A stretch of DNA of 64,000 nucleotides from the IMG/VR virus record IMGVR_UViG_3300040751_002066, positions 1 through 64,000 of that record; one strand, 5' to 3'. Shown here piece by piece: positions 30,901-46,102 of this stretch; the first letter of the stretch is position 1; the number at the start of each line of letters is the position of its first letter. The DNA is from a virus. The position numbers were made by a program, and so were the translations under genes. The notes beneath the pieces are model-generated. The model was not told the DNA's origin and made no database searches. It saw only the letters and a program-made list of their open reading frames with translations.

Positions 30901-31842
30901 GGGGAGATCGGGCGGGCCATCCGCTCGTCGCTTCCCAAGTGGTCACGTAGCCACAACATTATGGCGAGAGCCAATGAGGATGGCACGATCACCACGTATG
31001 ACCTGACCTACTACAACCCTCTGTCCTTTGTGCAAGATCCGCTCCTCGTTATGTGGGACCGGACCGCCACGGATGGGGCCGACGCCGGCGCCACCGCGTT
31101 CTTAGACGCCCTTGTGAATGATGTTATCGGCGAGGGTATCGGACCCGGAGCCCTGCGCCAAGTGCTGACGAACTCGGATGACTACGGGCGGGACATCTTC
31201 CTCGAGACAGATGACCTCGGAACCAAGGTTACCAAGGCGTTGACCCACTACTACGAGGGGGCCCTCGAGCCCGGAGCTTTCCGGTTGGCTGAGAAGTTGA
31301 CCGACGCCAGCAGCAGGGAGGATGCCGTGGATGGGGACCGGGTGTACAACGTGACACCTATCCTAGTGGGCGAGGTGGTTGGTGTGAAACCATACGAGTA
31401 TAAGAACTCGAAACTAATCGAGCGTTCTGCGAAATCCACCAAGCGCCAGCTTGACGAGATCAAGACACTCCTGAGCCCGGTCACCTCTCCGGGGTACAAG
31501 ACCAAGGAGGAGATTCAGGAAGCAGTGCGCGGGTATCAGGAAGCCTACGAGCAGCTTTGGAAACAACACCGCCGCAACGCCGCCGCATGGGTGGGACTCA
31601 CGGGAGACGAAAAAGCCCGGGAACTCTACGCACGCAGCATGGTTGATGCCGGACACAGCAAGGCTCGGACCAGACAGGTCCTCTATGAGGGGGTGCTGGA
31701 CCGCTTTGTTAGGAATCGTTCAGGACTCGAGACCATCTTCGAGGCCGCCGAGAATGAGGGTGCGGAGCATGGCGCGGTCCGGGTCGAGAGATTTGTAGAC
31801 ACGGTCCTTGAGAAGCCACGATTCATTCCGCTGACCGAGTGA
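18907..31842 (+). CDS. Giant polyvalent virion protein (4311 aa) with zincin domain
   Basis: 4311 residues, a fifth of the window. In order: N-terminal helical region; hydrophobic segments near 400-480 and 710-725, with SSEALEEGLDEF; three tandem copies of a 169-residue unit near 940-1435; long coiled coils; a degenerate metallopeptidase-like region near 2945 (LLRGLIQHALSIV in place of HExxH); an intact zinc motif LLNHELAHLASL near 3135 with a downstream EEFIRM; and a C-terminal region with hydrophobic segments near 3700-3730 and 3960-3985. This fits phage polyvalent proteins that travel in the virion and act on entry; the proposed roles (peptidase, membrane passage) are inferred. A single uninterrupted frame. 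Confidence 0.85.
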   Translation: MALSTTTPFDQWVDSEEAQGLEGIDKIKAYGDHYRTTQFAAGSYNPQQAQLVDRQLFDLARNSGFVEGEEEEAYAQFVAPTPKEPTNQDLAQVVEHQYGVEGKGLTPVRDYLSLRNISGADEDLVAERAEAAAEYLTPEKIDEAKRFAAQRGDIPLHASPVEGGLDIEVSPFLEEDEITNEMLVDIAKSQGIDSRYLPQIKDLISKPAGLNVSKARAVRNMEIRSVVASSDDEAITQVRDRVLSLVKDGDLAYARNVAQDAARSGALSRQYSSNDVVDAVMDYAKVATQKDQPSILSTGEVMMPHALLTRGEDHDALVDSLDISDEQKALTKESRSIRLAQMAPHMHKVATAAAGSEYTEFYEQGKASGKSDAAIIEEWFSDDDNFSGSRQMLEGAGTGFLRGFGGLVLYPLALAGNETARKDLARLQEDESHRQEYASLFGEEFGIGYSIVTTAPEVAADILLSIPTGGAAGVASAGTRWTMKQGAKVVLRDALSTSARATTAAAIKKGAPGSITAALELSGRSFTQKLGTLAQTTLATAPTAYSRSAGATYASTYSALEAKHPEWSAEKIRTAALGHANITGMLTVGIMSAFSGLALASPKYFGAGVEEWATSLGDGLTVRQARAAYQKLALKTNKIPAAAKHYLNMESFEGFVSSIAKEGMRKSFGKNLVRQGSSEALEEGLDEFINGWRTSAFLDEDKSILDHLRSAAHAAIVGGVFGTTAAVKEGGFTSKVSDTAQAQFERDSFVTIADGLERSGDVQSAAVLRGLVARSRRQKNEVTKQLETLGRFAQRQEVKVGAEVSPYENLVSVDPTLPRVLQDELTYAEQYIDSFKGRNLAELSTQERVNLAAAKIYRSKISDVHAKAATEAEAGVEPLTDPDETRTNIAALEEEITRLSASPSQASRVAELTTQKEALEARLAPEPSTPTPVPLPGDRGPGPVNSKIHNQLAQTEELLARLRVQEKANPALRNSPAHRAKKFELRDQRRRQREALANGDPVGKELKWRQFPLERIAEILQQGTRGEVYDPSTNRMVSPTEDPALAVDIIQRAAAEKEKFDNASRAKQRRGTPLTEAEKISLATQDPLEAYEKILTKFGGPVATPPGNKGPGPGNSKIHNQLAQTEELLARLGAQEKANPSLRNSPSHRIKKFELRDQRRRQREALANGGPVSKDIKWRHHPLERIAELIRTNSVDEVFDPASNQTFIPAKDPARAVDIIQRAAAEKEKFDNASRAKQRRGTPLTEAEKISLATQDPLEAYQDILTKFGGPVATPPGNKGPGPGNSKIHNQLAQTEELLARLGAQEKANPSLRNSPAHRIQKFELRDQRRRQREALANGGPVRNEIKWRHHPLERIAELIRTDSVDEVFDPASNQTFIPTIDPELAVETIKRASAEKAKFDNASRAKQRRGTTLTEAEKVSLVTQDPLEAYQDILEKVEDVIEELAFDPSDESDSPNPDVASRARALRVAKAAAQRAEAEAEIDAIPEDAPGVAEAVQKFAEAASEVPEAQPRSSQITAEGSDTIVVVTESEATVYEGDEEVSTEPVSSFEEAVAIANEVFIKEGVEPEDISQTEPIEEAQPVDPNEGIEEALSEAADAETEEAAAEYIAAELEAIQTGKSTTEVLEEKEEEVRKEFKVIADVAPLLSSHPGAGWTAVWVNKPVAIKGYDPAKHVAKSENGEVVVRLRKGNKRKLKKEVVPLFGPETTLYDDNGSPQFLTTEDETLFYDLVERGVSEISDKSFRKEGPYDLSSKSSYYMNPFLATLRAEVEARYEVPELPENTILSATPPSPEETKRSVTETYVILLENGQDVGALTDTLISRRESLHESLLDPETGKRRTKKSRDIAALERANDQLHKAQAELAETESIEPDEVSEYYSLLQKVANAEARYNFEVEQAREAQQARDEKAEPLPYGARARVEDQATAPEVRRGFKAAEKRFKKATQEADRAYALWQGLRTDLAKLKDPRTLPERTALQSKVDDAQQKLADVKRGIRSGDFREATIVQRIKDIDQALSKAIATKTRGVEYDKDGKPVNTRNQKVVEIDRRSKPISSGRANRIDTAKKDHQRAVKAALKRGKSTSGGVTQNLQFPVVVDTTVAKDGTIRRVQYIPFTNTPLVMAEALNLGYEVKVPKEFRGNSAKLNPSIRVSRDGYVAEVFHPKENRWVKSPGDLVVYSRDSAFTPSSVKDGVRAKYVSALPPVRAQDVPLLGATPLGIEGDSVATIRDRENPELSGADGEYILGALDFFDGISGGNRRRVDTDAFTKASRKINRFFRKEVGPLSRQRYLLEEALSLQPKIGTVTIPPALLPANLETGEKPTVGAEVSEEKINSLIAEAEGRVENGTADDRVRGVLESLRLVRREFLESKESFEEAQKSEKLTEDQLAELLEDVPSDSEEHSRIALRISRGVDPKTLRDAIEQRKAAVEEARAKAREAVARAKEKFGEPSEDAGRTYIRQGGSVTDLLQVVDKANGEHSDARAAAQLIYTQEIREFGVALRLLEANERGKVPSVWFKKFLKSLAPEARKDYLKYIRSRHKSKVSRKMTADEAVSFLAEAGVGEDLDTLSSALLKWDQGKKRPDRITTKQLKGFLTRLKSPELVAKLDAHLDAEAKANVNDDFFISNYVTELLDRIAPDGGTSPWVTTPGGVARPQSFNKVLRSVRKNYLDSLANTKSLEFTSIDASPEGGGESGGSSGVLAAELSAAWGLNPEAGNLNLSEDPEAEAEVASMRRAESELTTTEFYVQLARRVRNSSAAQAAVRDLAEELGAIERPDIQPIESVLMATHEMLFRDPNIVTSLDPELRTIVQRLYRSGLGSGMDFGTAEDIQETIDSNKAWYSFRIRKAGFQTEGVTHVPSLDRNDVRWLTESYISGKGVLTPAQKQVFDKVAGTLNAFNDWPTLSFFDHPNSAYARYTGAYSPDSKGLYINLSRDDAASPDTLLRGLIQHALSIVEPGGPADAAIRDVAGDIIKSYPNKKHLATKDLTPDAPHNPSVLRFAMNDPVVFNHLNRRNPSFIRKVVDAVAKAIGLTSNVGRGRLSSIVSPAPGTVWGGEPKETRAAYRPEDVTSESALSILNRVSPAGVRIHSSEDHNQPAWVSTTSPDTVFVNAKVVEEYTSHLSPEGKEQVVSALLNHELAHLASLQTLTDADRAEILAGMTRRDFEETLSRVPEGTGHLELAEEFIRMKVEQITGGVDSDVTVQSILNYGTGFRAQVVRAIQKFFAQLSRMFKARPNTRTAVHLNKVRDALASIQRGGMPLRPVPTEDVDGHWTALNELAEGTERTFFSVPLHSTDPAHESKWARWRKQRAIKREVREVENHINYNRNVYDAIIKDFHRKVRNAGKDRGVDVRGLVPTLNAAMGSTDAYFTEQQEEVLRVAKERDAANGMSPEEVLAADTERRRVAQRTHVQNKTQQQEAAMARIKQIDPELANHVKHFRDLLAKDSRAVGSIHGDGAFKAIFDDRAHIHLIRSYEFFHSKAYRDAVLAGSTGGVKGYEDVNFNDLRTLAIKSIKETHHARYGTTIDGKKAYKILDGLLSEWAQLRPDQIKLNALTKSHALFESKEALPEGVRNLLGQHSELDSAATTAVRLSNYLAKHEGAKTVRKLLLSNKWAFEDPRAGGATQLVPLWNSLQNDADYAALHGLWAPAEDKALIEETLTSVLPPTAGPEVDAVAKKTANLVRRGFGASLTLKTLFSPGFFTRNEGAMSLVMLPMQGYFSGALGLFGASNKGRRAAGLAWSGLGAREFDPGDEAYIRELLKHGIIHDDVNAGLLRDIHGSTVSLGQDIDKDLNDFAETGKPKGWIKKSIERWGKANGLKAAAIDALLTGKGGADNLTAFLSKINEAIDAKGKIQLYEYELSVLKKARDEADGAFSALTDEELKAKAAAKIHRTLPGHSQVYNSVRSLTRSNLGLLIAPFARFKGETVRIFANTIPLGLEEIREGREIGSAALKRRGLKRVASFGLVNLAFGTAFTSLISMLFDGIDDAEDREESFVPLRGEIGRAIRSSLPKWSRSHNIMARANEDGTITTYDLTYYNPLSFVQDPLLVMWDRTATDGADAGATAFLDALVNDVIGEGIGPGALRQVLTNSDDYGRDIFLETDDLGTKVTKALTHYYEGALEPGAFRLAEKLTDASSREDAVDGDRVYNVTPILVGEVVGVKPYEYKNSKLIERSAKSTKRQLDEIKTLLSPVTSPGYKTKEEIQEAVRGYQEAYEQLWKQHRRNAAAWVGLTGDEKARELYARSMVDAGHSKARTRQVLYEGVLDRFVRNRSGLETIFEAAENEGAEHGAVRVERFVDTVLEKPRFIPLTE
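21723..23217 (+). repeat. Three tandem ~507-base repeats inside the giant gene
   Basis: Units begin near 21723, 22236 and 22743, each opening with CCCGGNAACTCCAAGATCCACAACC-like sequence (GP..SKIHNQLAQTEELL in protein). Long blocks between units 1-2 and 2-3 are base-for-base identical while others diverge, indicating recent duplication or gene conversion. Each unit has a basic RDQRRRQREAL motif and KFDNASRAKQRRGT. Confidence 0.9.
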
Positions 31843-34307: not shown

Positions 34308-35765
34308 TTATGTTAGGGTGATTGCCGCGAACTCCCCCCATGGGAAGTGCGACTTTGGTTTCTTGTATGAGAGCCACAGTACCGGGTACTCGGGCTCAGT
34401 CATTTGTTTGTGGTCTGTACACACCCCGTCGGTGAAGTAGATCAGCAACAGGGGGTCGATGCAAAGATGGTGGGGGTCTTCGGTGACCCAGTCGAACGCC
34501 GCCTTGAAGGAGGTGCCCCCTCCCCCTCGGAAAGAGGAGGGGACAGTCTCGCCAACTTCAAGTATGACGTGGTCCTTTACCTTATCGGAACAGGAGAGGA
34601 GGAGCAACCGGTTGGGTTCCACCTCGTCGAGGATGTACTGGTTCAGCTCAATGAACTTGTCCCACGCCTCCCGATTGATGGACCCGGAAGAGTCGGCGAC
34701 GACAATGATGTCACCCACCTTCTTACCCTCCCGGCCGGGGGCACACAGACCGGACGCAACGTACACCCCGTGGTTGTAGGGTGCGAGCCACCCGTCTTCG
34801 CAACGGGTCTCAATGAACTGCTGGGCGTAGGATACCCAGTCTTGTGGAGAGGAGCTCTTGCGTTCACTGGCAATTCGGTTGGCAGTGTCGCCGCCCGACC
34901 CACACGCCGATTGCTCGACCGAGTCCTGAAACATGAGCCGTTCATTCTGTTCCTCGAGGCTGGTCTCCAGTTCTACTTGGTCCTCCCCTTCGCCAGCGAC
35001 AGGGGCGAAGGTGTCGACACCTCCTGCACCGGGTCGTGGGTCAGGGGCAGGGGAATCGGATCCGGGATCAGGAGGCCCAGCGTCAAGGTCGCCCCCGCCC
35101 CCGTCGCCAGCAGTGCCACCATCAGGTTGTCCTTGCGGATCTTCTTCTCGGTCGTCACCACTATCTCCTCCGGCCGGTTGATCACCGTCGGGGTGTTCGG
35201 GGGGATCGTCCGGGGAAGCTTGATTCGGGGGTTCTGGTCTATCAGGTGCATGGTCTTTGAGTAGGCGTTGGTATAGTTGCTCGGTGTTGTACCCATCCGA
35301 GAGGGTGGTGTCAAGTAACGCCCACTCCGGAACAGGGAACAGGGTTCGACGTCCGGGGTTGCGGGGGTCGTGGAGGCTCTCGAAGTTGTGTTCCCATATG
35401 ATCTGGTTGATCACATAGTCAGCGGCTTGGTTCGCCACCTCGGGGCGGGTGAACTTGGAGAGCCGAACCCCGTGATTGAGCAGCGCATGGAGCGCCTCAT
35501 GCAGCAGCAAGAACGCGACATATCCGACGCCATCTTGGAGCGTATCCTGCCCTTCGTTGAACATGTCATCCACCCCGTCCACGTTGAGCCACATGTAGAT
35601 GCCATCCGTGGCCCCATACGGTACCTCTTCGGACCACACCCAGTTGAGACACATGAGCTTGGAGTAGGCGAGGGGCCAGTGGGTGGCGACCCTCCGGGTG
35701 GCCCGCTTCAACGGGTGGTCACGGTCCAGCCCCCGAAGATCTACTTGTTGGTCACAGTTCATCAT
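34308..35765 (-). CDS. Metallopeptidase-like VWA protein (CobT/DUF2201-like)
   Basis: 485 residues. The N-terminal domain has LLLHEALHALLNHG near residue 88 (HExxH metal site) as in the DUF2201 putative metallopeptidase family. A Pro/Asp/Gly-rich acidic linker spans about 180-260. The C-terminal VWA domain starts VVADSSGSI near 352 (MIDAS DxSxS) and contains GGGGTSF and LIYFTDG near 440. Such proteins pair with MoxR/CobS-type AAA+ ATPases, one of which is encoded at 40093-41220. ATGATG gives two possible starts; GAGGAGATA lies 6-9 bases upstream, a plausible Shine-Dalgarno. It overlaps the upstream stop. Confidence 0.8.
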   Translation of the reverse strand: MMNCDQQVDLRGLDRDHPLKRATRRVATHWPLAYSKLMCLNWVWSEEVPYGATDGIYMWLNVDGVDDMFNEGQDTLQDGVGYVAFLLLHEALHALLNHGVRLSKFTRPEVANQAADYVINQIIWEHNFESLHDPRNPGRRTLFPVPEWALLDTTLSDGYNTEQLYQRLLKDHAPDRPEPPNQASPDDPPEHPDGDQPAGGDSGDDREEDPQGQPDGGTAGDGGGGDLDAGPPDPGSDSPAPDPRPGAGGVDTFAPVAGEGEDQVELETSLEEQNERLMFQDSVEQSACGSGGDTANRIASERKSSSPQDWVSYAQQFIETRCEDGWLAPYNHGVYVASGLCAPGREGKKVGDIIVVADSSGSINREAWDKFIELNQYILDEVEPNRLLLLSCSDKVKDHVILEVGETVPSSFRGGGGTSFKAAFDWVTEDPHHLCIDPLLLIYFTDGVCTDHKQMTEPEYPVLWLSYKKPKSHFPWGEFAAITLT

Positions 35766-36328
35766 GACTGTATCTCCTCGAGCACGGGTTCAAGGGTGAT
35801 CGACGAGTAATAGTACCCGGCCCGGGCACGTTGCGCCGTCCAGACAGCGGCCTGCACCTGCGCCGGGGACCACCCAAGGGTGCGTGCCACCCATCCGATG
35901 CGCTTCTCCGCCTCGGTCTGGACACTCTTGTTACGGAGCTTGGCCGCAGGTACATTGAGGGCGTGCCCCATGTGGGTATCCAGTACCACCGCGTCTTCGT
36001 CTCCGAGCAGGGCGTGGGCGAAGCGACGGGTCTTCGGTCCCCGGATAGAGGACAGTGCGAACTGGGAATCCTTGGCCCGGTCGAAGGAGGCAGCCACTGA
36101 GGGCAGGACCCTCGGGTATATCCCATATAGGAACCACAAGAGGGTCAGCTTGATATTCTGCCGCACGCTTACTTGTGGCGAGAGTACGGCGAGAGCGACC
36201 ACGAACTTGATTGTGTCCCAGCCATGGTTGCAGCAGGTTAGGTCAATGTCCGCGAGGGCCTCTGGGTACCATAGCTTTCCGTAGGACCCTTCAATCGCTA
36301 GTTGTAATATTTTTTGTTTTGAGGTCAT
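35762..36328 (-). CDS. DUF7178-like protein with HhH-GPD-like features
   Basis: 188 residues. A helical region with LAVLSPQVSVRQNIKL is followed by IRGPKTRRFAHALLGDEDAV then VLDTHMGHALNVP. The order helix - GPKT - LDTH recalls the HhH-GPD (endonuclease III) hairpin and catalytic Asp (VDTHV), and the whole matches the pattern of DUF7178 phage proteins. Base-excision activity is a guess. The ATG at 36328 was chosen over 36433, which would extend into the preceding coding region; its leader is CCTAACCCCTATTCAAAATAAC. Confidence 0.55.
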   Translation of the reverse strand: MTSKQKILQLAIEGSYGKLWYPEALADIDLTCCNHGWDTIKFVVALAVLSPQVSVRQNIKLTLLWFLYGIYPRVLPSVAASFDRAKDSQFALSSIRGPKTRRFAHALLGDEDAVVLDTHMGHALNVPAAKLRNKSVQTEAEKRIGWVARTLGWSPAQVQAAVWTAQRARAGYYYSSITLEPVLEEIQS

Positions 36329-36345
36329 GTTATTTTGAATAGGGG

Positions 36346-36621
36346 TTAGGCTGGGTTGCTGATTTCCACGGTGACTACCTCTCCCGGCGGGAGGGGCACC
36401 ACGCGAAATGTAGTGTCGTCGGCGCGAGACCATCCCCCTCCGGGGTAGGTGCGGGTAAGGTTCATAACCTCGTGATGAAACTTGGACTGGGTCCGCATCA
36501 CTAGGTCACCATGGTATGAACCCCCCGGGGCGTGGATCCGGGCAATCTGGAGCGGTGCCAGACTAGACATAGGGATGACTTTTGGCTTGGCGTTTTCTTT
36601 GGTTGTAATAACTTTAATCAT
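36346..36621 (-). CDS. Unknown small protein (91 aa)
   Basis: 91 residues, MIKVITTKENAKPKVIPMSS..., beta-rich with GGSYHGDLVMRT and FRVVPLPPGEVVTVEI. No family recognised. It lies between the hairpin at 36653-36686 and the DUF7178-like gene. Confidence 0.5.
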   Translation of the reverse strand: MIKVITTKENAKPKVIPMSSLAPLQIARIHAPGGSYHGDLVMRTQSKFHHEVMNLTRTYPGGGWSRADDTTFRVVPLPPGEVVTVEISNPA

Positions 36622-36652
36622 AATGGTTGTACTGTTTGGTTGTTGGTGGGGC

Positions 36653-36686
36653 GCCCCGCATACTAGTGTCGACCAGTATGCGGGGC
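36653..36686. repeat. Intercistronic hairpin, CATACT family (site 1)
   Basis: Outer stem GCCCCGC with GCGGGGC, inner CATACT with AGTATG, apex AGTGTCGACC. It is in the gap between the 36706 stop and the ATG at 36621. Confidence 0.85.
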
Positions 36687-36705
36687 GGGTTGGATTAGGT
36701 GGGGG

Positions 36706-37623
36706 CTACGCAGAGATGCCGAGGTCTCCGAGGATACTTTGGGAAACGGTTCCCACCGCTGCCTTGGCAGTGGCCTCAAGATCACGACGGTGGTCAGTGT
36801 CTCCGCGCACCACGTCAAGGTCCGCGTTGGCGATAGGCTCGAGGGCAGCAATAGCTTCGTCGAATCGCTCCGACTCGATCCAGTTATACTCCTTGGCCAC
36901 CTCGAGTCGGGACCGGAGCTTCTCGAACCGGCTACGACGCACCCGGCAGTCGGAGCCGAGCACTCCGAGGATCCCTTGGTCCGTGTCACCCGCACCGGTG
37001 ACGATGGCCAACAGCTCACGAAGCAGGTTCTCTTGTGCGTCTTGAAGGATGTGATTACGGGACTCTTCGACTTGGGCCCGGACCTTGGCCGCGACTTCCT
37101 CACTCACCCCTGCGAGTAGGATGTCCCCGGAGGTGGGGTCTGGGGTGTAGTCCAGCTTGTGGGTGAACTTGGCCGCCGCCACTTCCGCGGAAGGGAACTC
37201 GATGTCTTCACAGGCACTCGCCAGTTTCTTCTGGGACGCTGCGACAAGCGCCGGGTATTGCCGGCGAAGCTCGCCACGCAAGCGTTCGAGCTGGTCGTCG
37301 GCGTCGTCAAAGATCTCGTTCACTTCAGTCAAGCGGTCGGCTCGGACGAGGATGCCCCCGGTACTGAGCTTGAGTCCCAGCTTGTTGAGGTTGGCGAGAG
37401 TCTGTGCAAACAGCGAGAGCATCTGCCCGATGGGAGTGCCCTTGGATTCGAACAGGCGGGCCACGGTGCGGAGCGCCTTCGGGTCGGCTCCGGTACGTTG
37501 GCAGTTCTCATTGGTGATACGCTTGTGGGTCACGGTGAGTCCGGTTCGAGTGGTCGAGTAGTGGACCAGAAGGTTACCGGTGACAGAGACAGGAGTAGAG
37601 GTAGTAGTAGTAGGAGTATTCAT
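36706..37623 (-). CDS. DUF3150-like partner of the AAA+/VWA pair
   Basis: 305 residues. After a Thr-rich N-terminus come a strand GNLLVHYSTTRTG, KRITNENCQRTGADPKALR, GGILVRADRL and a long helical region with LRGELRRQYPALV, then a C-terminal helical part. The pattern (a basic strand, K-R-I, a helical coiled region ending in an R..YP motif) recalls DUF3150, found beside CobS-like AAA+ and CobT-like VWA genes in phages and integrative elements. The start at 37623 follows a long CA-rich leader; the frame upstream simply translates that leader as QQPTTNNQQPTTN, so it is excluded. Confidence 0.5.
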   Translation of the reverse strand: MNTPTTTTSTPVSVTGNLLVHYSTTRTGLTVTHKRITNENCQRTGADPKALRTVARLFESKGTPIGQMLSLFAQTLANLNKLGLKLSTGGILVRADRLTEVNEIFDDADDQLERLRGELRRQYPALVAASQKKLASACEDIEFPSAEVAAAKFTHKLDYTPDPTSGDILLAGVSEEVAAKVRAQVEESRNHILQDAQENLLRELLAIVTGAGDTDQGILGVLGSDCRVRRSRFEKLRSRLEVAKEYNWIESERFDEAIAALEPIANADLDVVRGDTDHRRDLEATAKAAVGTVSQSILGDLGISA

Positions 37624-37682
37624 AGTAATAATATTTTTGTTGGTTGTTGGTTGTTGGTTGTTGGTTGTTGGTTGTTGGGTTG
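37624..37682 (-). promoter_or_regulatory. CA-rich untranslated leader
   Basis: In mRNA sense, four to five CCAACAA units followed by AAAATATTATTACT and the ATG at 37623. There are few G residues and no Shine-Dalgarno. It is the clearest example of the leader type used in this block. Confidence 0.7.
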
Positions 37683-37683
37683 G

Positions 37684-37717
37684 GCCCCGCATACTAGTGG
37701 CGACCAGTATGCGGGGC
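37684..37717. repeat. Intercistronic hairpin, CATACT family (site 2)
   Basis: Stem GCCCCGC with GCGGGGC around CATACT...AGTATG, apex AGTGGCGACC. It lies directly before the CA-rich leader of the DUF3150-like gene. Confidence 0.85.
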
Positions 37718-37724
37718 AGTTGGA

Positions 37725-38417
37725 CTAGTGGTCAGTGTCTTCAGGGTAGTCGAACAGGTAGTTGCTTGGGTACTCCGTTTCGGGGCAGCACTCGGTTCCG
37801 TAGTTGGGGAACTTGACCCCCACCTCGGAACCCCACTCTTCCCACACGTCTCCTACCCACACCCACTCTCCGGTCGGGGATTTCTCATGACCGTCGAATA
37901 CCGCCGTGAAGTGGGCCTCGCCCCTGAAGGACAGACACCCGGGGTACCGAGGCGGGGGGTCTCCCCGGTACACTGTGTCGAGGGCCTCCATTAGTTGAGG
38001 GAGCGTAACCCCAAGGACCCTTGCCTTCCCCGCAAGGAACTCATTGACTGGAGGGTCGGGCCGGGTGGGCTGCGAAGCGGAGGCGTCCACCCCCTCAAGG
38101 TCCCACTCATGCCTGACTTCCTTCACCTTGTTGGGACTTACCAGTACCCACACGAGGGAACCAGTAGGGTAGGGTCCCCGGAAGGGGTCGCACACCCCAA
38201 TGGGGGTGGCCTTGTGCCCCGCGTTGCGCTCTCGGTATGGTTGTTTAGACACCCGGTTGAAGTTTCCTTGGGGGTTGATGTACACCTCGTCCCCGGCACT
38301 CAAGGGGGCCGCCGCGTAACCGGAGAGGATGGCTACGTGGATGGCGTCCTTAACACCCGGGGCTACGGGCGTGGTTCCGAGGGTGTTCTTCTTGTTAATC
38401 TGTGATGTGGTACTCAT
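37725..38417 (-). CDS. Conserved phage protein of unknown function (230 aa)
   Basis: 230 residues. PLSAGDEVYINPQGN, then IGVCDPFRGPYPTGSLVWVLVSP and VRHEW form a small beta barrel-like region seen in many phage proteins of unknown role. The C-terminal part is acidic with Trp-rich VWVGDVWEEWGSE. Its leader (CCAACCAAACCAACTG) is CA-rich and contains the stop of the upstream gene. Confidence 0.6.
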   Translation of the reverse strand: MSTTSQINKKNTLGTTPVAPGVKDAIHVAILSGYAAAPLSAGDEVYINPQGNFNRVSKQPYRERNAGHKATPIGVCDPFRGPYPTGSLVWVLVSPNKVKEVRHEWDLEGVDASASQPTRPDPPVNEFLAGKARVLGVTLPQLMEALDTVYRGDPPPRYPGCLSFRGEAHFTAVFDGHEKSPTGEWVWVGDVWEEWGSEVGVKFPNYGTECCPETEYPSNYLFDYPEDTDH

Positions 38418-38420
38418 AAT

Positions 38421-38618
38421 TTATACAGTTGGTTTGGTTGGTCCGTCCATTGAGGCTGGACGGTTCGCCTTTCGGGTGGGGATTAGTAACTCGTCGCGTA
38501 ACTCTTGGACGTTCTGTTCCAAAAGTACCAGTCGAGTGATCGCTTTGTTGAGCATCTGCTGAGTCTCGATGAGTCTCCTCTTCAGTGTTTCTTTTGAGAC
38601 CATGGCTTGGGCTAACAT
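38421..38618 (-). CDS. Small coiled-coil protein (65 aa)
   Basis: 65 residues: TLKRRLIETQQMLNKAITRL and VLLEQNVQELRDEL form one amphipathic coiled coil. Two starts are possible, ATG at 38618 (overlapping the upstream gene by 7 bases) or the sixth codon, MVSKET. It may oligomerise; function unknown. Confidence 0.55.
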   Translation of the reverse strand: MLAQAMVSKETLKRRLIETQQMLNKAITRLVLLEQNVQELRDELLIPTRKANRPASMDGPTKPTV

Positions 38619-39151
38619 GGTATGGGTTCGAGTTCGAGGATGTATTCCGCATCCTTGTCCCCCGGGGTGATGCGGGAGACGGCAGCAACGGTGGCGAGTT
38701 GGGGGTCTGTCACTATCTGAATGCCGTAGCCAATGTATGGGCCCCCATCCGGGTCAATGAAGGACAGGTCTCCGTCCTCCTCCTCCCCCCACCGGCAACT
38801 TAGGGCCCCGACAAGAGACAGCTTGGCGTAGTGGGACCCGTCCTTCCGACGGTACACCTCGATGGGCCACCGCTTGTTGTACCGGGAGCGCAAGGCCCCC
38901 CTCCGTGTGCAGGTCGTCGGCCCGTTGTCTGGCTCAAGGTGCTCCTCGAGCCAGTCAAGTAGCTCGTCGCTGTCTGCGGTCTCGGTGTCAACCTTGGCGT
39001 CCCATCCGTGTGCCGTGTCGGTGTATCGGATGAGGGTCATGTCGTTGTTTTGCGTGCCCCTCTCGACGGCGAGGAGCAGCCCCTCCCGTTGGAAGGTTAC
39101 GCTGTCGGCGGGAGTTATTTCGTGGATTTCTCGTAGTTCTTTTAGGTTCAT
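38612..39151 (-). CDS. Unknown protein (179 aa)
   Basis: 179 residues, alpha/beta, with an acidic first half (DTETADSDELLDWLEEHLEPD) and a central basic strand region (RWPIEVYRRKDGSHYAKL). Ends in TAG. No family recognised. The ATG at 39151 lies behind AACAACCAACAACCAAC, one of the purest CA-rich leaders. Confidence 0.55.
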   Translation of the reverse strand: MNLKELREIHEITPADSVTFQREGLLLAVERGTQNNDMTLIRYTDTAHGWDAKVDTETADSDELLDWLEEHLEPDNGPTTCTRRGALRSRYNKRWPIEVYRRKDGSHYAKLSLVGALSCRWGEEEDGDLSFIDPDGGPYIGYGIQIVTDPQLATVAAVSRITPGDKDAEYILELEPIPC

Positions 39152-39154
39152 TTC

Positions 39155-39589
39155 TTAGTTGGTTGTTGGTTGTTGGTTGTTACTAGTCTTGACCAGTATG
39201 TAGGGGACGTCGTATCGGACCCACATGAATGCCCACTTGGCGTCGTGTATCGGTGAGGGGTCTGACTCCCCCACGACGGGTGCGGTGCGGAAGTACCCCG
39301 ATACGTGTGGGTTGTACCATACCTGATGGGACCACCCGTGCCGGTATAGTTCGTGGTGTTCCGGAGGGAAGGCGAGCGGGAAGGAGGCCACGTCCCCCAT
39401 GTCCGGGGCGGTCACGAAGGCGTGGACATTCTTGCGTCCCTCCCTGATAACCCGCTGCCTTCCCCCCTCCTGAACCACGAACCGTGGACCATGGATCAGG
39501 ATACAGGGAGTGTGGAACAGGACCCGGCCGCCTTGGCGCACGGAGAATAGTTTCTTGTGCAGGTTGAAGTAAACTTCTACTCGGCTCAT
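39155..39589 (-). CDS. Conserved phage protein, leader-encoded C-terminus (144 aa)
   Basis: 144 residues. The start MSRVEVYFNLHKKLFSVRQG and the later RKNVHAFVTAP match a widespread phage protein family of unknown function. The last residues TSNNQQPTTN are a direct translation of the CA-rich leader of the next gene, and the inner hairpin motif (ACTAGTC...GACCAGTATG, 39182-39202) lies in its final codons. Thus the ORF has run into the intercistronic module. Confidence 0.65.
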   Translation of the reverse strand: MSRVEVYFNLHKKLFSVRQGGRVLFHTPCILIHGPRFVVQEGGRQRVIREGRKNVHAFVTAPDMGDVASFPLAFPPEHHELYRHGWSHQVWYNPHVSGYFRTAPVVGESDPSPIHDAKWAFMWVRYDVPYILVKTSNNQQPTTN

Positions 39590-39783
39590 GGCTCCCCTAA
39601 CCTTTCCACTAGGATCTTCAGTGCCTCGTCCCGGTTGGGCGCCTCGAAAGGCGGGACCACTCGCAGCACAAAGGGGTTGTCTTGCACGTCGTAGGTGTAG
39701 TCCTTCGGATCATTAAAGTACCGCTTGAGGATGGCCTTGCCACTGCTGTGCCAGTAGCCCCACCATTTAATTGGTTCACTCAT
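39586..39783 (-). CDS. Conserved small phage protein (65 aa)
   Basis: 65 residues. IKWWGYWHSSGKAILKRYFN followed by DYTYDVQDNPFVLRVV and a helical end resemble short phage proteins usually next to the family at 39155-39589. Function unknown. It overlaps both neighbours by 4-8 bases. Confidence 0.6.
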   Translation of the reverse strand: MSEPIKWWGYWHSSGKAILKRYFNDPKDYTYDVQDNPFVLRVVPPFEAPNRDEALKILVERLGEP

Positions 39784-40039
39784 GGCTACTCACCCTTTCC
39801 CGCACTTCCTTTAGGATGGACCGGGCCTGCGAGGGGCCCACTGACTGTAACGCCCGGGGGCTTTCGTAGCTCACCCCAAGGAACCGTCCCTCGCTCCGCT
39901 CGAACGCGTCCCCAACCTTGGGAGTGTTGAGGTGGTTAGTGAGTATCTCATGCCCCTCCCCTTGGGGGGAGAGGAGAAGGACCCCCCGAAGCCCGAAGCT
40001 GTTCGTGTTCTCAGATATACTTATAACGTGGAATTTCAT
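39776..40039 (-). CDS. Unknown small protein (87 aa)
   Basis: 87 residues, MKFHVISISENTNSFGLRGV..., with a short beta start and KVGDAFERSEGRFLGVSY. The ATG at 40039 follows a CA-rich leader of about 50 bases (AACCAACAACTAACAACC). The frame extending further upstream translates only the leader and was excluded. Confidence 0.55.
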   Translation of the reverse strand: MKFHVISISENTNSFGLRGVLLLSPQGEGHEILTNHLNTPKVGDAFERSEGRFLGVSYESPRALQSVGPSQARSILKEVRERVSSHE

Positions 40040-40092
40040 AATAGTTGTTTGGTTGTTAGTTGTTGGTTGTCGGTTGTTGGTTGGGTTGGTTG

Positions 40093-41220
40093 TTACGCAC
40101 CTACTAGTTCTGCCCACATCTCAGGTCGGCGTTCAGGCACGTTGATGCCCCGTCTCTGGGCAGTGGACAACCCGTAAGCTGCGACCTCGGGGTTGAGTCT
40201 CGCCATGCCATCCATCGCCCAGTCCAGCTTACCGGAGTGAAGTGCGGCACCGACGTCGCTTATGCCGCGGGTGGCATATAGCAAGGCGCCACTCGCCAGC
40301 ATGAACTGCTGGTCGCTACGCTTGGGGACCGTGAACCCTTCCGGGTCTTTCTTCATGGCCTCGAAAGCGGGCCGGTCCTCGAGGACTGCCAAGAAGGCGA
40401 ACAAGGCGTTGCTCGCCGCGTCCCCGACCCACCCTTGGACGTTCACCCGCGCCGCCTCTCTGGTGCAGCGTCCCTCTCGTTGGTGGATGAGAGTCTTCAT
40501 GACCTCCTCCCATGCACGTGGGGAGGGCTGGGCGTTGGGGACGAGAGGGTCAAAATCGGACGGGTCTCCGAGGAAGTGATCCTTGTGGGCCTCCGAAGCG
40601 GATACGCTGTTGCCATACGCAATGAACGCAGGGACGAAGGTCTCCGCATACTCGGGGACTGAGTCGGCCCACCGCCACCAGTTGGCCGCGTCGGGAATCA
40701 AGGTAACAAGGCTCGCCCGTCGGCACTCCGGGATGGAGTACCGACCAACCGCCGCCCCGTCGCTGCGTCTGTTGGTTGTGAGTCCACAAACCACGTTGGG
40801 TCCGATGATGTGAGACCCGAGGTATCGGTGCTTACCGGCGGGCGGGGACAGTACCCCGTGGAACGCGGCCCGGACTTGTGGGTCCCAGTTTCCCCACTCG
40901 TCGAGCACCCAATACACGTGGCTGTCTCCGACCCTGTCCATGGTGGGGATTCCCTCGGGCTGGGAGAACACCATGTTGAGTATCTTGTCTTCCCACTTGG
41001 GGAGTCCGAGTCCAGTTACTTCGACCGGACCTTTGCCTGCAAAGTTGGACAGGGTAACCGTGTCAAACAAGGGACGTGCGGCATTGGCCATGATGGTTGT
41101 CTTACCTACCCCGCTGGGTCCGAAGACCATGAGGGTAGATTGGGTGGCCCGTTGCAGGGCTACTTGTTCCTCCAACTGGGGAGGGCTGATCGGATTTTCG
41201 TTTTTCATTTCTTTTTTCAT
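40093..41220 (-). CDS. MoxR/CobS-like AAA+ ATPase
   Basis: 375 residues. Walker A GPSGVGKTT at 34-42, Walker B VYWVLDEWGNWD near 103, then GVLSPPAGKHRYLG and a sensor-like VCGLTTNRRSDG near 145. The short N-terminus, NFAGKGPVEVTGL pore-loop region and helical C-terminal lid fit MoxR/CbbQ/CobS-type AAA+ chaperones, which act as rings with VWA proteins to remodel a substrate. The VWA gene (34308-35765) and a DUF3150-like gene lie in the same operon. An alternative start is four codons downstream. Confidence 0.8.
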   Translation of the reverse strand: MKKEMKNENPISPPQLEEQVALQRATQSTLMVFGPSGVGKTTIMANAARPLFDTVTLSNFAGKGPVEVTGLGLPKWEDKILNMVFSQPEGIPTMDRVGDSHVYWVLDEWGNWDPQVRAAFHGVLSPPAGKHRYLGSHIIGPNVVCGLTTNRRSDGAAVGRYSIPECRRASLVTLIPDAANWWRWADSVPEYAETFVPAFIAYGNSVSASEAHKDHFLGDPSDFDPLVPNAQPSPRAWEEVMKTLIHQREGRCTREAARVNVQGWVGDAASNALFAFLAVLEDRPAFEAMKKDPEGFTVPKRSDQQFMLASGALLYATRGISDVGAALHSGKLDWAMDGMARLNPEVAAYGLSTAQRRGINVPERRPEMWAELVGA

Positions 41221-41236
41221 TTCTTTGTTGGGTTAC

Positions 41237-41752
41237 TTAGTCACGGATACGGAGGGACTTCACGTCTACTCCCGCAAGGTCGGCCACCTCTTGCAAGGTG
41301 AGGGTGGTTTCCTTGGCGGGTTCGGGGATGTGAGTACCGTGGTGATACCACTTCTTGGAGCCGTCGGACCACTCAATGGCGGGACCGTCTTCACGGTGGA
41401 ACCGGCCGTTGAGGTACCACGACTTGGAGCCGTCGGACCACTCAATGGCGGGACCGTCTTCACGGTGGCGCTGGCCGTGGTGATACCACTCCTTGATGCC
41501 GTTGGGTTCCTCAATGGCGGGACCGTCCTCACGGTGGAGCTTGCCGTGGTGATACCATGACTGGGCGCCGTCGGCATACTCAACGGCGGGACCGTTCTCA
41601 CGGTGGAGCTGGCCGTTGATGTACCACTCCTTGGTGCCGTTGGAATACTCAATGGCGGGACCGTCTTCACGGTGGTAGGTGGTAAGCTTACGGTTGGAAT
41701 AGTAACGGCGGGTGCCGTTGGGGTCTACGTAGATGTATTGTTCTTTGATCAT
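41237..41752 (-). CDS. HREDGPA-repeat (MORN-like) protein, copy 1
   Basis: 171 residues. Five 23-residue units of the form HREDGPAIE-x(2-3)-G-x-K-x-WY-x2-G follow an N-terminal MIKEQYIYVDPNGTRRYYSN, ending LTLQEVADLAGVDVKSLRIRD, a short helical (HTH-like) tail. The units recall MORN/YwqK-type beta-hairpin repeats common in large phages; binding partner unknown. The start at 41752 follows a CA-rich leader. A paralogue lies directly upstream. Confidence 0.75.
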   Translation of the reverse strand: MIKEQYIYVDPNGTRRYYSNRKLTTYHREDGPAIEYSNGTKEWYINGQLHRENGPAVEYADGAQSWYHHGKLHREDGPAIEEPNGIKEWYHHGQRHREDGPAIEWSDGSKSWYLNGRFHREDGPAIEWSDGSKKWYHHGTHIPEPAKETTLTLQEVADLAGVDVKSLRIRD

Positions 41753-41780
41753 ATTCTTTGTTGGTTGTTGGTTGGATGGG

Positions 41781-42296
41781 TTAGTCACGGATACGGAGGG
41801 ACTTCACGTCTACTCCCGCAAGGTCGGCCACCTCTTGCAAGGTGAGGGTGGTCTCCTTGGTGGGTTCGGGGATGTGAGTACCTTGGTGATACCACTCCTT
41901 GATGCCGTCGGGTTCCTCAATGGCGGGACCGTCCTCACGGTGGCGCTGGCCGTTGAGCCACCACTCCTTGATGCCGTTGGCATACTCAATGGCGGGACCG
42001 TTCTCACGGTGGCGCTGGCCGTGGTGATACCACTTCTTGGTGCCGTTGGCATACTCACTGGCGGGACCGTCCTCACGGTGGCGCTGGCCGTGGTGATACC
42101 ACTTCTTGGTGCCGTTGGGATACTCAACGGCGGGACCGTCCTCACGGTGGAGCTTGCCGTGGTGATACCACTTCTTGGTGCCGTTGGGATACTCAACGGC
42201 GGGACCGTCCTCACGGTGGAAGGTGGTAAGCTCACGGTTGGAATAGTAATGGCGGGTGCCGTTGGAGTAGACGTGGATGTATTGTTCTTTGATCAT
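41781..42296 (-). CDS. HREDGPA-repeat (MORN-like) protein, copy 2
   Basis: 171 residues, the same length and layout as the gene at 41237-41752, with five repeats (two tandem YPNGTKKWYHHG units among them). The C-terminal 21 residues and the first residues are identical. The two genes and their leaders form a tandem duplication with a period of 544 bases; the repeats differ between copies, suggesting unit shuffling. Confidence 0.75.
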   Translation of the reverse strand: MIKEQYIHVYSNGTRHYYSNRELTTFHREDGPAVEYPNGTKKWYHHGKLHREDGPAVEYPNGTKKWYHHGQRHREDGPASEYANGTKKWYHHGQRHRENGPAIEYANGIKEWWLNGQRHREDGPAIEEPDGIKEWYHQGTHIPEPTKETTLTLQEVADLAGVDVKSLRIRD

Positions 42297-42325
42297 ATTC
42301 TTTGTTGGTTGTTGGTTGGATGGGT

Positions 42326-42359
42326 GCCCCACATACTGGTTGCTACTAGTATGCAGGAC
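42326..42359. repeat. Intercistronic hairpin, CATACT family (site 3, degenerate)
   Basis: CATACTGGTTGCTACTAGTATG core is intact, but the outer stem (GCCCCA against GCAGGAC) is partly broken. It lies between the 42368 stop and the MORN-like gene leader. Confidence 0.7.
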
Positions 42360-42367
42360 AAGTCGGT

Positions 42368-42799
42368 CTACTCAAATGTAACAGTAAAGTTAGGCGCCTT
42401 GCTAGCGAGGTACCCCTCGATAGCCCCTTCCAAAGCGTCGTCGCTGATGTGTTCAGCGAGGTCGCCGAGGTCGATGTAGTCGGCAACCTTAATCGGGGAT
42501 ACGTGGGTGGCAACTCCAGACAGGCTCAGTTCCTCGGACAATTCCTCGAGGTCCACCCCCGCCGCCACCTTGTGGGGAGGGACGAAGGTCGCGACAACGG
42601 CGGGGTCCAGTTCGTCGGCCACCTGATCGGCAGTCGGAAGGTGGCGTGCAACCATGTCGGCAAGGTTCGCCGCTGCCTTGGTTGCCTCGTCTCTCCGGAT
42701 GTCCTCTAAGTAGTCGAGGAGTAGCCAGTCAAGGACCATGTACCAGATGATGCGGGCTTGAAGGAGGGGGTAGCTGAGTAGTAGGGTAATGTATTTCAT
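42368..42799 (-). CDS. Membrane-anchored helical protein (143 aa)
   Basis: 143 residues. The N-terminal MKYITLLLSYPLLQARIIWY is hydrophobic and probably anchors the protein in the membrane or acts as an uncleaved signal. The rest is acidic and helical, with two similar segments (HKVAAGVDLEELSEEL and IKVADYIDLGDLAEHI). Unknown family. The start at 42799 follows a CA-rich leader; the upstream frame translates that leader. Confidence 0.6.
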   Translation of the reverse strand: MKYITLLLSYPLLQARIIWYMVLDWLLLDYLEDIRRDEATKAAANLADMVARHLPTADQVADELDPAVVATFVPPHKVAAGVDLEELSEELSLSGVATHVSPIKVADYIDLGDLAEHISDDALEGAIEGYLASKAPNFTVTFE

Positions 42800-42888
42800 A
42801 ATAGTTTTGTTGGTCGTTGGTTGTTGGTTGGTTGGGGAGCACCCTGAACCATGGGGTCGGACCATGGTTCAGGGTTCTGGGTTCAGGG

Positions 42889-43155
42889 TTAGATACCAAG
42901 ATCGTCGTCTTCCTTCTTCTTCGCCTCCGCTGCCTCTTCCTCTTCCTCAATCAAAGCGTCGAAGCGTTCGTTGAGGGTGTCCCGAAGGGAACGAAGAGCT
43001 GCCAACGTCTCGCTGCGTGTAGCCTTAAGGGTAGGCTTACTCCCGGGGACTTGGGTGGTCACCTTCTCATTGAGGAGGGTGGAGGTTTGGTAAGTATCAA
43101 CCTTGTGCGTGATGGCGAGGTCGAGGGTAATGGTAGTTTCGGATGGTGTTTTCAT
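42889..43155 (-). CDS. Small coiled-coil protein with acidic tail (88 aa)
   Basis: 88 residues. A strand-like, Thr-rich N-terminus is followed by a helix (TLAALRSLRDTLNERFDAL-like) and an EEEEEAAEAKKKEDDD tail. Function unknown. Its leader is an ACAACT/CCACTA repeat rather than CCAACAA, another low-G, CA-rich type. Confidence 0.6.
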   Translation of the reverse strand: MKTPSETTITLDLAITHKVDTYQTSTLLNEKVTTQVPGSKPTLKATRSETLAALRSLRDTLNERFDALIEEEEEAAEAKKKEDDDLGI

Positions 43156-43187
43156 AGTAACAGTGGTAGTGGTAGTTGTAGTTGTAG

Positions 43188-43526
43188 TTAGAGAACCAGC
43201 TCATGGGTGTACGAACTGGTGCGATTGAAGGTACGTGCGAGTGTCCACGAGTAGGGCAGGCCCTTACAAGTTAGGATAACGAGCACACGGTCGTGGAAGT
43301 AGGATGTTGTAACCTCTTGCACTTCATAAAAAGTGGAATCGTATCGGAAGCGAACCCACTTGAGGTTGGTCTGAAGCCATTGCAACTGGGCAGTCGGACC
43401 GGCGAGGCGGGCCTCCTGTTTGCGGATGGCTGCGAGGTGGCGGGAGGCCCCGACCTCACGGACATCTTTCGATGCGCCGTGGGGCAGGACCTCGGGGTGC
43501 CTCCACTCAGGAAGAGGCAGTGACAT
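43188..43526 (-). CDS. Unknown protein (112 aa)
   Basis: 112 residues; a helical half (SRHLAAIRKQEARL) and a strand-rich end (VRFRYDSTFYEVQEVTTSYF, VLVILTC). No family recognised. It overlaps the upstream gene by 20 bases. Confidence 0.5.
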   Translation of the reverse strand: MSLPLPEWRHPEVLPHGASKDVREVGASRHLAAIRKQEARLAGPTAQLQWLQTNLKWVRFRYDSTFYEVQEVTTSYFHDRVLVILTCKGLPYSWTLARTFNRTSSYTHELVL

Positions 43527-43773
43527 AAGAGGGGAGCACTACGGATGACCGCACACCCACCTCCGATGGGTGAACCTTCTGATGCTCGACCAAGGGAAGC
43601 ACCCTCGACACTGGGACCCGATTGGGTGGGACGAATGGACGAACAATCAGGAGGTTACCCTCCCGACCCAACACCACGACACGGCGTCCCCTCAGCATAA
43701 GGGTCTCGCCGACGTAAATGGCCCAGCCTCTCGTACTAATGCCGACTAGTTTGGTATTGGTTCTACGCTTCAT
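43507..43773 (-). CDS. Small basic beta-rich protein (88 aa)
   Basis: 88 residues, basic and strand-rich: GRRVVVLGREGNLLIVRPF suggests a small beta barrel (SH3- or Kow-like), which might bind nucleic acid. No named family. It overlaps both neighbours. Confidence 0.5.
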   Translation of the reverse strand: MKRRTNTKLVGISTRGWAIYVGETLMLRGRRVVVLGREGNLLIVRPFVPPNRVPVSRVLPLVEHQKVHPSEVGVRSSVVLPSYVTASS

Positions 43774-44098
43774 AATATCCGGGGGTGGAGGGTTGGTCTG
43801 GCTGGGGGTAGTGTCCCCAGTAACTCTCGACTACCTTGTCGAGGGCGTCGGAGTCAATGGTGTTCCACCTCTCGGAGGTGAGGGTATCGAACTCGGCACC
43901 ATACTTCTCACAGGTCCTTCTCAGGAACTCCCGCTTGAACTTGTGGGCGAGGTCGATGTACTTGGTGCAACGGCTACGTGCCGAGTGGAGGATGACGTGG
44001 TCCTTACCTACACTGACCGAACACCGGCGCTTGAAGGGTTTAGGGGCCGGACCTTTCGGCTTCTCGTTGTCTGCTTTAATTTGAGGTAGTGCTTTCAT
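43763..44098 (-). CDS. Unknown protein with basic N-terminus (111 aa)
   Basis: 111 residues. KPKGPAPKPFKRRCSVSVGK is basic and probably flexible; HKFKREFLRRTCEKYGAEFD and DSDALDKVVESYWGHYP form helices. No family recognised. Overlaps the next gene by 11 bases. Confidence 0.55.
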   Translation of the reverse strand: MKALPQIKADNEKPKGPAPKPFKRRCSVSVGKDHVILHSARSRCTKYIDLAHKFKREFLRRTCEKYGAEFDTLTSERWNTIDSDALDKVVESYWGHYPQPDQPSTPGYYEA

Positions 44099-44167
44099 AG
44101 CTATTTGTTTTGGTTAAATGCACCGCTCTTGAAGAGGTGGCGGTGTGCCTCACCTGCTTGGTTGGGG

Positions 44168-44605
44168 TTACTTCAGGGATTTCTTTACCCCAACGGCGGC
44201 GCGATTGATCTCTGCAAGGGAGCTGAAGGATATGGTCTGGCACCCCACGTGGATGCCTTCCTTATCTACCGTTGCGGTGTAATCCCCGACACCGGGGACC
44301 TCAATACTAAGCTCCTCTTCCACAGGGGCGAGGAGGCTTATGATTTGTGCGAGGTCTTCCTGCCAGTCCCACAGATTAGTGAGGCCCGCCCCGTGAGCAT
44401 ATCCCCCAACTACTTGGAGGGCGTCCGGTCTTACCTTCACCACGGTGTACCTCGGGTATGACTTGTCCACCCATTCTTCCGGGGTGGCATCATACACTGT
44501 GATCGAGCCGGGTGTGTAGATCGCATACCCCATAGTTGAGAGTAGGGTCAGGCATTGGATGGCGTCTTGATGGCTGGAGAATTGGATGTTAATTACTTTA
44601 GACAT
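44168..44605 (-). CDS. Unknown protein (145 aa)
   Basis: 145 residues, MSKVINIQFSSHQDAIQCLT..., alpha/beta with YAIYTPGSITVYDA and GVGDYTATVDKEGIHVGC. The ATG at 44605 follows a CA-rich leader and hairpin (44639-44672). No named family. Confidence 0.55.
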   Translation of the reverse strand: MSKVINIQFSSHQDAIQCLTLLSTMGYAIYTPGSITVYDATPEEWVDKSYPRYTVVKVRPDALQVVGGYAHGAGLTNLWDWQEDLAQIISLLAPVEEELSIEVPGVGDYTATVDKEGIHVGCQTISFSSLAEINRAAVGVKKSLK

Positions 44606-44638
44606 ACTATTTTGTTGGTTGTTGGTTGTTGGTTGGGT

Positions 44639-44672
44639 GCCCCACATACTGGTCTTCACTAGTATGTGGGGC
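44639..44672. repeat. Intercistronic hairpin, CATACT family (site 4)
   Basis: Outer stem GCCCCAC with GTGGGGC, inner CATACT with AGTATG, apex GGTCTTCACT. Compared with sites 1-2, a G-C pair is replaced by A-T on both arms, a compensatory change. Confidence 0.85.
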
Positions 44673-44680
44673 AGGTTAGC

Positions 44681-45196
44681 CTAGAGGGCAGCTTGCAGCT
44701 CCTTTTGGATCGTTGACGCCAGCGCCTCCACACATTCCAGACCGGCCGCGCCCACCATGATGAGGTCCTTGGCACGTTCCACCTCCTTGGAGATGCGGTC
44801 TTCAGTCGCTTGGAGGCGGGCCTCCAACTTAGCCTGCACTTTCCTGAGTGCCTTCTTCTCCTTGGAGAGACGAGTGATCTCCTCTTGGTGGTCGTTGGTG
44901 ATGAGGTTAAGCACCGGAATATTAGCTACGTAACCACCCAAGTTGGAACGATTCTCTTCGATGGTCGCAGCAATAACCTTCCGGACCGCCGCCGCCGGTG
45001 CGGGACGGGGGTTGGCATAGGGATCCTCAAGGAGCGAGTTGATTCGATCCCGGATCCAATCGATCCGCACCCGGCCATCAGTGCGGGCAGCGTCGCAGAG
45101 GTCATGGTGCGCGTCGCGGGCAAGAGAGTCGAGGCGTTTCACGATGTGCTTCTTCTCCGAGGCTGTCATTTTTGGGGTGTTATTTGTAGTCTTCAT
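44681..45196 (-). CDS. Coiled-coil protein (171 aa)
   Basis: 171 residues, almost entirely helical: EEITRLSKEKKALRKVQAKL and EARLQATEDRISKEVERAKD (about 105-145) form a strong coiled coil. The N-terminus is basic. Function unknown; possibly a structural or oligomerising partner within the accessory block. Confidence 0.6.
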   Translation of the reverse strand: MKTTNNTPKMTASEKKHIVKRLDSLARDAHHDLCDAARTDGRVRIDWIRDRINSLLEDPYANPRPAPAAAVRKVIAATIEENRSNLGGYVANIPVLNLITNDHQEEITRLSKEKKALRKVQAKLEARLQATEDRISKEVERAKDLIMVGAAGLECVEALASTIQKELQAAL

Positions 45197-45236
45197 ACTA
45201 TTTTGTTGGTTGTTGGTTGTTGGTTGTTGGTTGGGT

Positions 45237-45270
45237 GCCCCACATACTGGTCTTCACTAGTATGTGGGGC
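45237..45270. repeat. Intercistronic hairpin, CATACT family (site 5)
   Basis: Identical to site 4 over 34 bases (GCCCCAC/GTGGGGC stem, GGTCTTCACT apex), 598 bases away, so one copy probably arose from the other together with the CA-rich leader. Confidence 0.85.
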
Positions 45271-45282
45271 GATTGGTTGTGG

Positions 45283-45567
45283 TTAGCCACGCATCATGGC
45301 GGCGGCGAGACCGGAAACGTCACCCGTCTTGAGCATGCGTTCACTGTCCTCCATGGATGCGGCTTGCTTAAGGCCACGGGCCCGACGGTCTACCGATTTC
45401 TTCGCGACCGTCGGGTTCGCTACGACTTCAATCACCCCGTCTTCACGGGAGGTCAAGTCTTTGTTGATAATAAGAATCACTGGAGCCTTCGCGCCACGCG
45501 CAAGAGTCAGAGTGAATCCTTTGTATTGGGCGGTTGCCCCCATCTTGTTTTCTGTTTTGGTTTTCAT
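45283..45567 (-). CDS. Unknown small protein (94 aa)
   Basis: 94 residues: YKGFTLTLARGAKAPVILII is strand-rich; the C-terminal part is helical (KQAASMEDSERMLK). No family recognised. The gene is followed by hairpin site 5 in mRNA order. Confidence 0.55.
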   Translation of the reverse strand: MKTKTENKMGATAQYKGFTLTLARGAKAPVILIINKDLTSREDGVIEVVANPTVAKKSVDRRARGLKQAASMEDSERMLKTGDVSGLAAAMMRG

Positions 45568-45645
45568 GTTACAGGCCGGAAGTCTATCCGGTGGGGTATG
45601 TCCCGCGCAGCCGAAGCCACACGGGGCACACAGTCACCGTGCATA

Positions 45646-45674
45646 CTTAGTCACGGATACAGAGGGACTTGTTG
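45646..45674 (-). pseudogene. Fossil of the HREDGPA-repeat gene 3' end
   Basis: ACTTAGTCACGGATACAGAG then GGACTT matches, with one change, the 3' end and stop of both MORN-like genes (SLRIRD-stop). It lies between two unrelated genes and has no coding body, so it is a relic of a third copy or a recombination scar. Confidence 0.6.
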
Positions 45675-45682
45675 GGGATTAA

Positions 45683-45970: not shown

Positions 45971-46010
45971 TGTTTTGTTGGCTGGGTTGTTAGTTGTTAC
46001 CCAGTGCTAT

Positions 46011-46056: not shown

Positions 46057-46102
46057 ACGCCACTGAGAGTATAAGAACTCAATCTTATACCTGTGGTTGG
46101 GG

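Follow-up and report, generated by a model that had tools for sequence, protein, structure and literature searches.

Three minus-strand genes of an IMG/VR virus record raise two questions: whether they encode the parts of a single machine, and on what such a machine would act. The window analyzed here comprises 64,000 bases of this record, whose total length is 68,929 bases (68.9 kb). A preliminary description of the DNA had proposed that the open reading frames of an AAA+ ATPase, a DUF3150-like protein and a VWA protein form one set, and the three were indeed present where it had placed them, all on the minus strand.

Layout of the locus

The gene of the MoxR/midasin-like AAA+ ATPase (40093..41220, minus strand) encodes 375 residues, that of the DUF3150-family protein (36706..37623, minus strand) 305 residues, and that of the DUF2201 protein (34308..35765, minus strand) 485 residues arranged as an N-terminal putative metallopeptidase domain and a C-terminal VWA domain. 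The trio is dispersed across 6.9 kb. An intervening ORF of family DUF7178 (35762..36433, minus strand; PF23802, E 4e-16) overlaps the start of the VWA gene (ATGA), and another small ORF, without a family, lies between the DUF3150 and VWA genes (36346..36621, minus strand). The small genes between DUF3150 and AAA+ (37725..39783, minus strand), located at 37725-38417, 38612-39151, 39155-39589 (Phage_L5_gp82) and 39586-39783, are lineage-specific insertions, the matching gap being short in relatives. Directly upstream of the AAA+ gene are two tandem paralogous genes (41237-41788 and 41781-42332) made of 69-bp (23-aa) repeats; one of the two matches DUF6745.

The stretch of the minus-strand gene block also carries short repeats. 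The dyad CATACTRGTNNNNACYAGTATG is present in 12 copies in 36659-48649 (up to 3 mismatches; 0.04 expected). These dyads resemble an operator, a promoter or an RNA hairpin particular to this phage, and an Rfam search with the dyad returned no match. Runs of the repeat CCAACAACCAACAAC (36646-45234, minus strand) immediately precede the start codon of the DUF3150 gene and those of several small genes. They frequently follow directly on a CATACTRGTNNNNACYAGTATG dyad, with no evident Shine-Dalgarno site. Such runs were not found in the 180 loci collected. A perfect 10-bp tandem repeat, CAGTGCCATA, is located at 47453-47512.

The AAA+ ATPase and the VWA protein

The AAA+ protein matched phrog_1297 ("ATPase", E 4e-24) and gave, when taken alone, weak AAA matches. 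Among 39 homologues, AAA_5 of Pfam was matched by 26, AAA_3 by 7 and bpMoxR by 4, and the best PDB match of the homologue profile was midasin (E 2e-43). Walker A (GPSGVGKT, residues 34-41; 41098..41121, minus strand), Walker B (YWVLDE, residues 103-108; 40897..40914, minus strand), the sensor-1 Asn and the arginine finger were kept across the homologues. The Walker A lysine (K40) and the sensor-1 Asn were present in every homologue covering those positions, D107 was invariant where covered, and position 108 was E or D. The MoxR clade of AAA+ proteins is defined by a helix-2 insert; for the window protein, the AAA_5/AAA_3-type profile and the motifs expected of this clade were both found, the profile by way of the homologues.

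The DUF2201 protein was recognized directly, with matches to Pfam DUF2201 (VWA-like; E 8.5e-15, 55.4 bits vs. a gathering score of 26.4), to DUF2201_N (putative metallopeptidase; E 9.7e-10, 38.9 bits vs. 23.2) and to phrog_1314 (E 1.2e-50). Its zinc-binding-type motif HEALH covers residues 89-93 (35487..35501, minus strand) and its MIDAS sequence DSSGS residues 358-362 (34680..34694, minus strand). The alignment of 88 VWA sequences showed H89, E90, H93, H98, N112, D116 and N120 to be invariant (88/88), and the MIDAS residues D358, S360, S362, T418 and D446 were likewise identical in all of them, so that each of the 88 combines HExxH in the N-terminal domain with a DxSxS MIDAS in the C-terminal domain. 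The preliminary description had regarded a zinc site in a VWA partner as unusual. This view has to be corrected: because HExxHxxxxH is invariant in the 88 homologues, the site is a family signature, and judging from the alignment this motif is the defining feature of DUF2201_N.

In a profile search, the HExxH region weakly matched MJ1213 (entries 4qhf to 4qhj) as well as M48 peptidases, at E about 1e-3, which is compatible with a zincin. The model of the whole protein (mean pLDDT 78) confirmed the VWA fold, including a match to the NorD VWA of the NorQD complex; the fold searches returned VWA chains alone, i.e., they addressed the VWA half and barely probed the peptidase half. The N-terminal HExxH domain is probably a protease domain. 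Members of phrog_1314 (e.g., L003:5464-6660 and L009:5392-6573) are called "HNH endonuclease" in RefSeq, a label that stems from the PHROG description. It does not fit the DUF2201-type domains of these proteins, and this naming is thus shown to be unsuited to them in both resources.

An AAA+ ATPase next to a VWA protein could also be read as a viral CobST cobaltochelatase that works with host CobN and raises the cobalamin supply. Clusters of cobST are reported to be widespread in tailed viruses, where cobT is often annotated as a peptidase (PMC8651126), and CobS/CobT form an AAA+ and VWA two-gene cluster as here, but they belong to different families. No CobS or CobT family match was obtained in Pfam or NCBIfam, the window protein has a complete HExxH domain, and DUF3150 is not part of CobST. 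Neither CobN (PF02514) nor a large-subunit ribonucleotide reductase was found in the virus record, although the host may have a CobN. We consider a cobaltochelatase very improbable.

The DUF3150 protein

The assignment of the middle protein to DUF3150 did not emerge when the window protein itself was searched with profiles. Neither Pfam nor PHROG gave a match for it, and a PF11348 search of the whole virus record returned nothing at E<=10. Through its homologues, the assignment stood. After an 85% identity cut, 38 DUF3150-like sequences were left, the window's included, and 17 of the 38 matched PF11348 (best E 7.9e-8). The protein of L011, a close relative of the window's, reached 22.0 bits vs. 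a PF11348 cut-off of 24.9. A profile built from homologues outside the window's clade recovered the window protein (E 5.5e-17, in a space of 25,000 sequences), and hhalign of this protein against a profile built without its clade gave 97.7%. We therefore accept its membership in the DUF3150 family through the homologues and not through its own score. Thus the three families named in the preliminary description were right, AAA+ and DUF2201 directly and DUF3150 by this indirect route.

The AlphaFold model of the DUF3150 protein (mean pLDDT 89) presented short strands at the N-terminus, a helix of 46 residues and, at the C-terminus, a bundle of helices. Foldseek returned 8 viral proteins at E<=0.001, one of them named DUF3150 (E 4.5e-10). 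Fold matches in the PDB were discarded as not meaningful, since they were generic helical bundles, none at E<=0.001, the best having a Z of 10.6 over 108 residues.

Recurrence of the three genes

Single-sequence scans of IMG/VR with each trio protein and with the terminase yielded no confirmed relative. When six VWA homologues from phages were aligned and used as the query, 80 IMG/VR loci were retrieved, and iterated profile searches over the ORFs of the collected loci detected 87 VWA, 81 AAA+ and 63 DUF3150-like ORFs. Reached from VWA, the trio was near-contiguous in 59 of 87 other loci, ordered AAA-DUF3150-VWA in 43 and DUF3150-AAA-VWA in 16, these counts containing near-duplicates. AAA+ and VWA occurred without DUF3150 in 19 loci, and the remaining loci were partial or cut by contig ends. 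Eight of the 80 loci (L011-L018) had a VWA gene 32-39% identical to the window's and shared its terminase at 42-46% identity.

A second scan, started from DUF3150, found both partners in 76 of 81 loci, the other 5 being cut at contig ends, and the complete trio in all 35 loci that had over 3 kb of sequence on either side; this set is redundant and represents one branch (phage loci at least 54% identical to the query). A scan of a genome collection with DUF3150 gave one locus, within a metagenome-assembled genome. The genes adjoin in dozens of relatives, and their recurrent linkage is more than chance would give. The proposal that they constitute one module is thus borne out by the 59 near-contiguous loci and by the 76 of 81 reached from DUF3150, and co-occurrence of AAA+ and VWA in relatives, once checked, turned out to be the rule.

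There are exceptions. No diverged DUF3150 was found by hhalign or profile in the loci with AAA+ and VWA only, and DUF3150 was undetectable in N4-like, vequinta-like and other phages with AAA+ and DUF2201 genes, whole records included. Therefore, DUF3150 is not needed by every pair. Also, in the phage Tunturi_3 the protein gp96 (L095:5872-6831), annotated as an HNH endonuclease, is DUF3150-like and has no AAA+ or VWA partner of the trio type. Tunturi_3 gp103 was considered as a diverged MoxR partner and rejected, as hhalign gave no support; the AAA+ gene close by belongs to a different type.

Genomic context

The module of the window shares its strand with the genes of a DNA polymerase, an exonuclease and a helicase, and is opposite to the terminase and to a giant ORF. 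Relatives present the same arrangement, with DNA polymerase A on the strand of the module in 33 of 33 cases, the helicase in 27 of 27, and the terminase on the opposite strand in 11 of 11. The commonest families among 97 neighbouring ORFs were DNA polymerase, terminase, primase, exonuclease and DnaB-like helicase, and the 25 commonest neighbour families included no capsid or tail family, terminase excepted. The trio also occurs on proteobacterial plasmids, namely Burkholderiales plasmids and one of Rhodovastum, and on pBVIE02 it lies just upstream of a VirB4-like gene. Conjugative plasmids need no virion proteins. Strand, neighbours and plasmid carriage thus favour a role other than virion assembly.

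The giant ORF (4311 aa) lies downstream of the terminase, at 18907-31842. ORFs homologous to it, likewise giant with 3.7-4.4 thousand residues, were found in 7 of the 8 records L011-L018, in a search that covered ten records, some of them fragments. This protein was tried as a dedicated partner of the module and rejected: by context, it is absent from most carriers, which are other phages and some plasmids. The suggestion that the phage's own giant protein would be the target was consequently not retained, as most carriers are other phages or plasmids and the module runs with replication genes, not with late genes.

These data bear on the possibility that the pair is a chaperone-protease of virion assembly, folding and trimming structural proteins, as has been proposed for group 2.2 jumbo phages and demonstrated for the ATV tail (p618/p892). 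A published proposal covers exactly this domain pair (Iyer et al., 2021; PMC7824862), ATV provides a precedent (PMC4124505), and a giant late protein is conserved in the window's lineage. This reading is nevertheless unlikely in view of the replication strand of the module, opposite to the terminase, of the lack of capsid and tail families among the 25 commonest neighbour families, terminase excepted, and of the plasmids that carry the trio. Because the module is on the replication strand, opposite to the terminase, and also on plasmids, neither virion assembly nor the giant protein makes a good general target, and this context moves the search for the target off virion assembly.

Comparison with known systems

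The pair formed by MoxR and a metallopeptidase-VWA protein is already known, from jumbo phages and as gp24/gp25 of N4. In group 2.2 jumbo phages, a MoxR-like AAA+ stands beside a VWA protein whose N-terminal domain is a metallopeptidase, as here, and virion assembly was proposed (Iyer et al., 2021); unlike here, no DUF3150 partner is mentioned, the assignment is to virion assembly and the genomes are large (PMC7824862). N4 gp24 and gp25 belong to the core genome of Schitoviridae and are listed as an AAA ATPase and a vWFA protein of unknown function (PMC7650795, PMC2784036). They constitute a homologous pair (phrog_1297, phrog_1314), adjacent or near-adjacent and beside replication genes as here, but the N4-like records searched had no DUF3150 homologue. 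The Synechococcus phage MinM2 (OQ594354) has a MoxR ATPase, a DUF3150 and a VWA-like gene, annotated as such and in the order of the window, with distant sequences and different small genes in between. DUF3150 as a third partner of the AAA+/VWA pair seems new to the literature; no mention of DUF3150 was found in the literature searched, although one may exist elsewhere.

NorQ/NorD also associates a MoxR AAA+ with a VWA partner, whose fold matches that of the window protein, but NorD is without the HExxH peptidase domain and the role of the system is metal insertion into NO reductase. In NorQD, the MoxR ring twists a linker of the VWA partner (PMC13036017). The experimental viral precedent is ATV p618/p892, interacting virus-encoded MoxR and VWA partners of the tail (PMC4124505); they differ from the trio by the absence of a peptidase domain and of DUF3150, and serve tail development of an archaeal virus.

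Proposed function

The MoxR/VWA-type remodelling machine put forward in the preliminary description is the best-precedented reading of the locus. We propose, with a probability of about 0.6, that the trio is one module, an AAA+ remodelling machine that probably includes a protease domain, has the helical DUF3150 protein as its third part and is active in early or mid infection. Its components would be a MoxR-type AAA+ ring, a co-chaperone in which VWA is joined to a zincin-like metallopeptidase domain, and DUF3150, and we infer that the three associate physically. The MIDAS site of the VWA domain would grip a peptide of the target complex, the AAA+ ring would use ATP hydrolysis to pull or twist the linker that connects the VWA domain with the peptidase domain, and the HExxH domain might then cut or sense an exposed segment, while DUF3150, as an adaptor, may bridge ring, VWA and substrate. 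Such a machine would be produced with the replication genes, would act during the early or middle part of infection on a protein complex of either the host or the phage, and would not be dedicated to virion assembly. We counted for this proposal the recurrent linkage of the trio, the conservation of the catalytic residues of both enzymes, the VWA-NorD fold match, the replication strand and neighbours, the carriage by plasmids and the mechanism of MoxR-VWA systems (PMC13036017, PMC7159879), and against it the 19 AAA+/VWA loci and the whole records of N4-like and other phages without DUF3150, Tunturi_3 and the 6.9-kb spread in the window.

Alternatively, mobile elements could use the machine in defence or counter-defence, to disable or remove host or rival proteins. 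The trio is common to phages and plasmids, and MoxR-VWA ternary systems serve in biological conflicts (PMC7159879). However, PADLOC models gave no match beyond a weak one in the Walker region, and the pair is among the core genes of N4-like phages, which points to a housekeeping use. A conflict function seems to us quite unlikely.

Within the remodelling-machine reading, a more specific and rather speculative idea, to which we give little weight, is that of a mobile-element AAA+ zincin protease with DUF3150 as its third subunit, which would extract protein complexes bound to DNA or associated with replication and cleave them. Cdc48-Wss1, a eukaryotic system, would be its working analogue. The trio might then be common to phages and conjugative plasmids since both would have to clear proteins from DNA at entry or replication.

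The core pair of N4-like and other phages has been without a function since it was named. Our data indicate that a tightly co-inherited DUF3150 protein joins this known phage pair in many phages and plasmids, which provides a defined three-protein set for expression, purification and assay.
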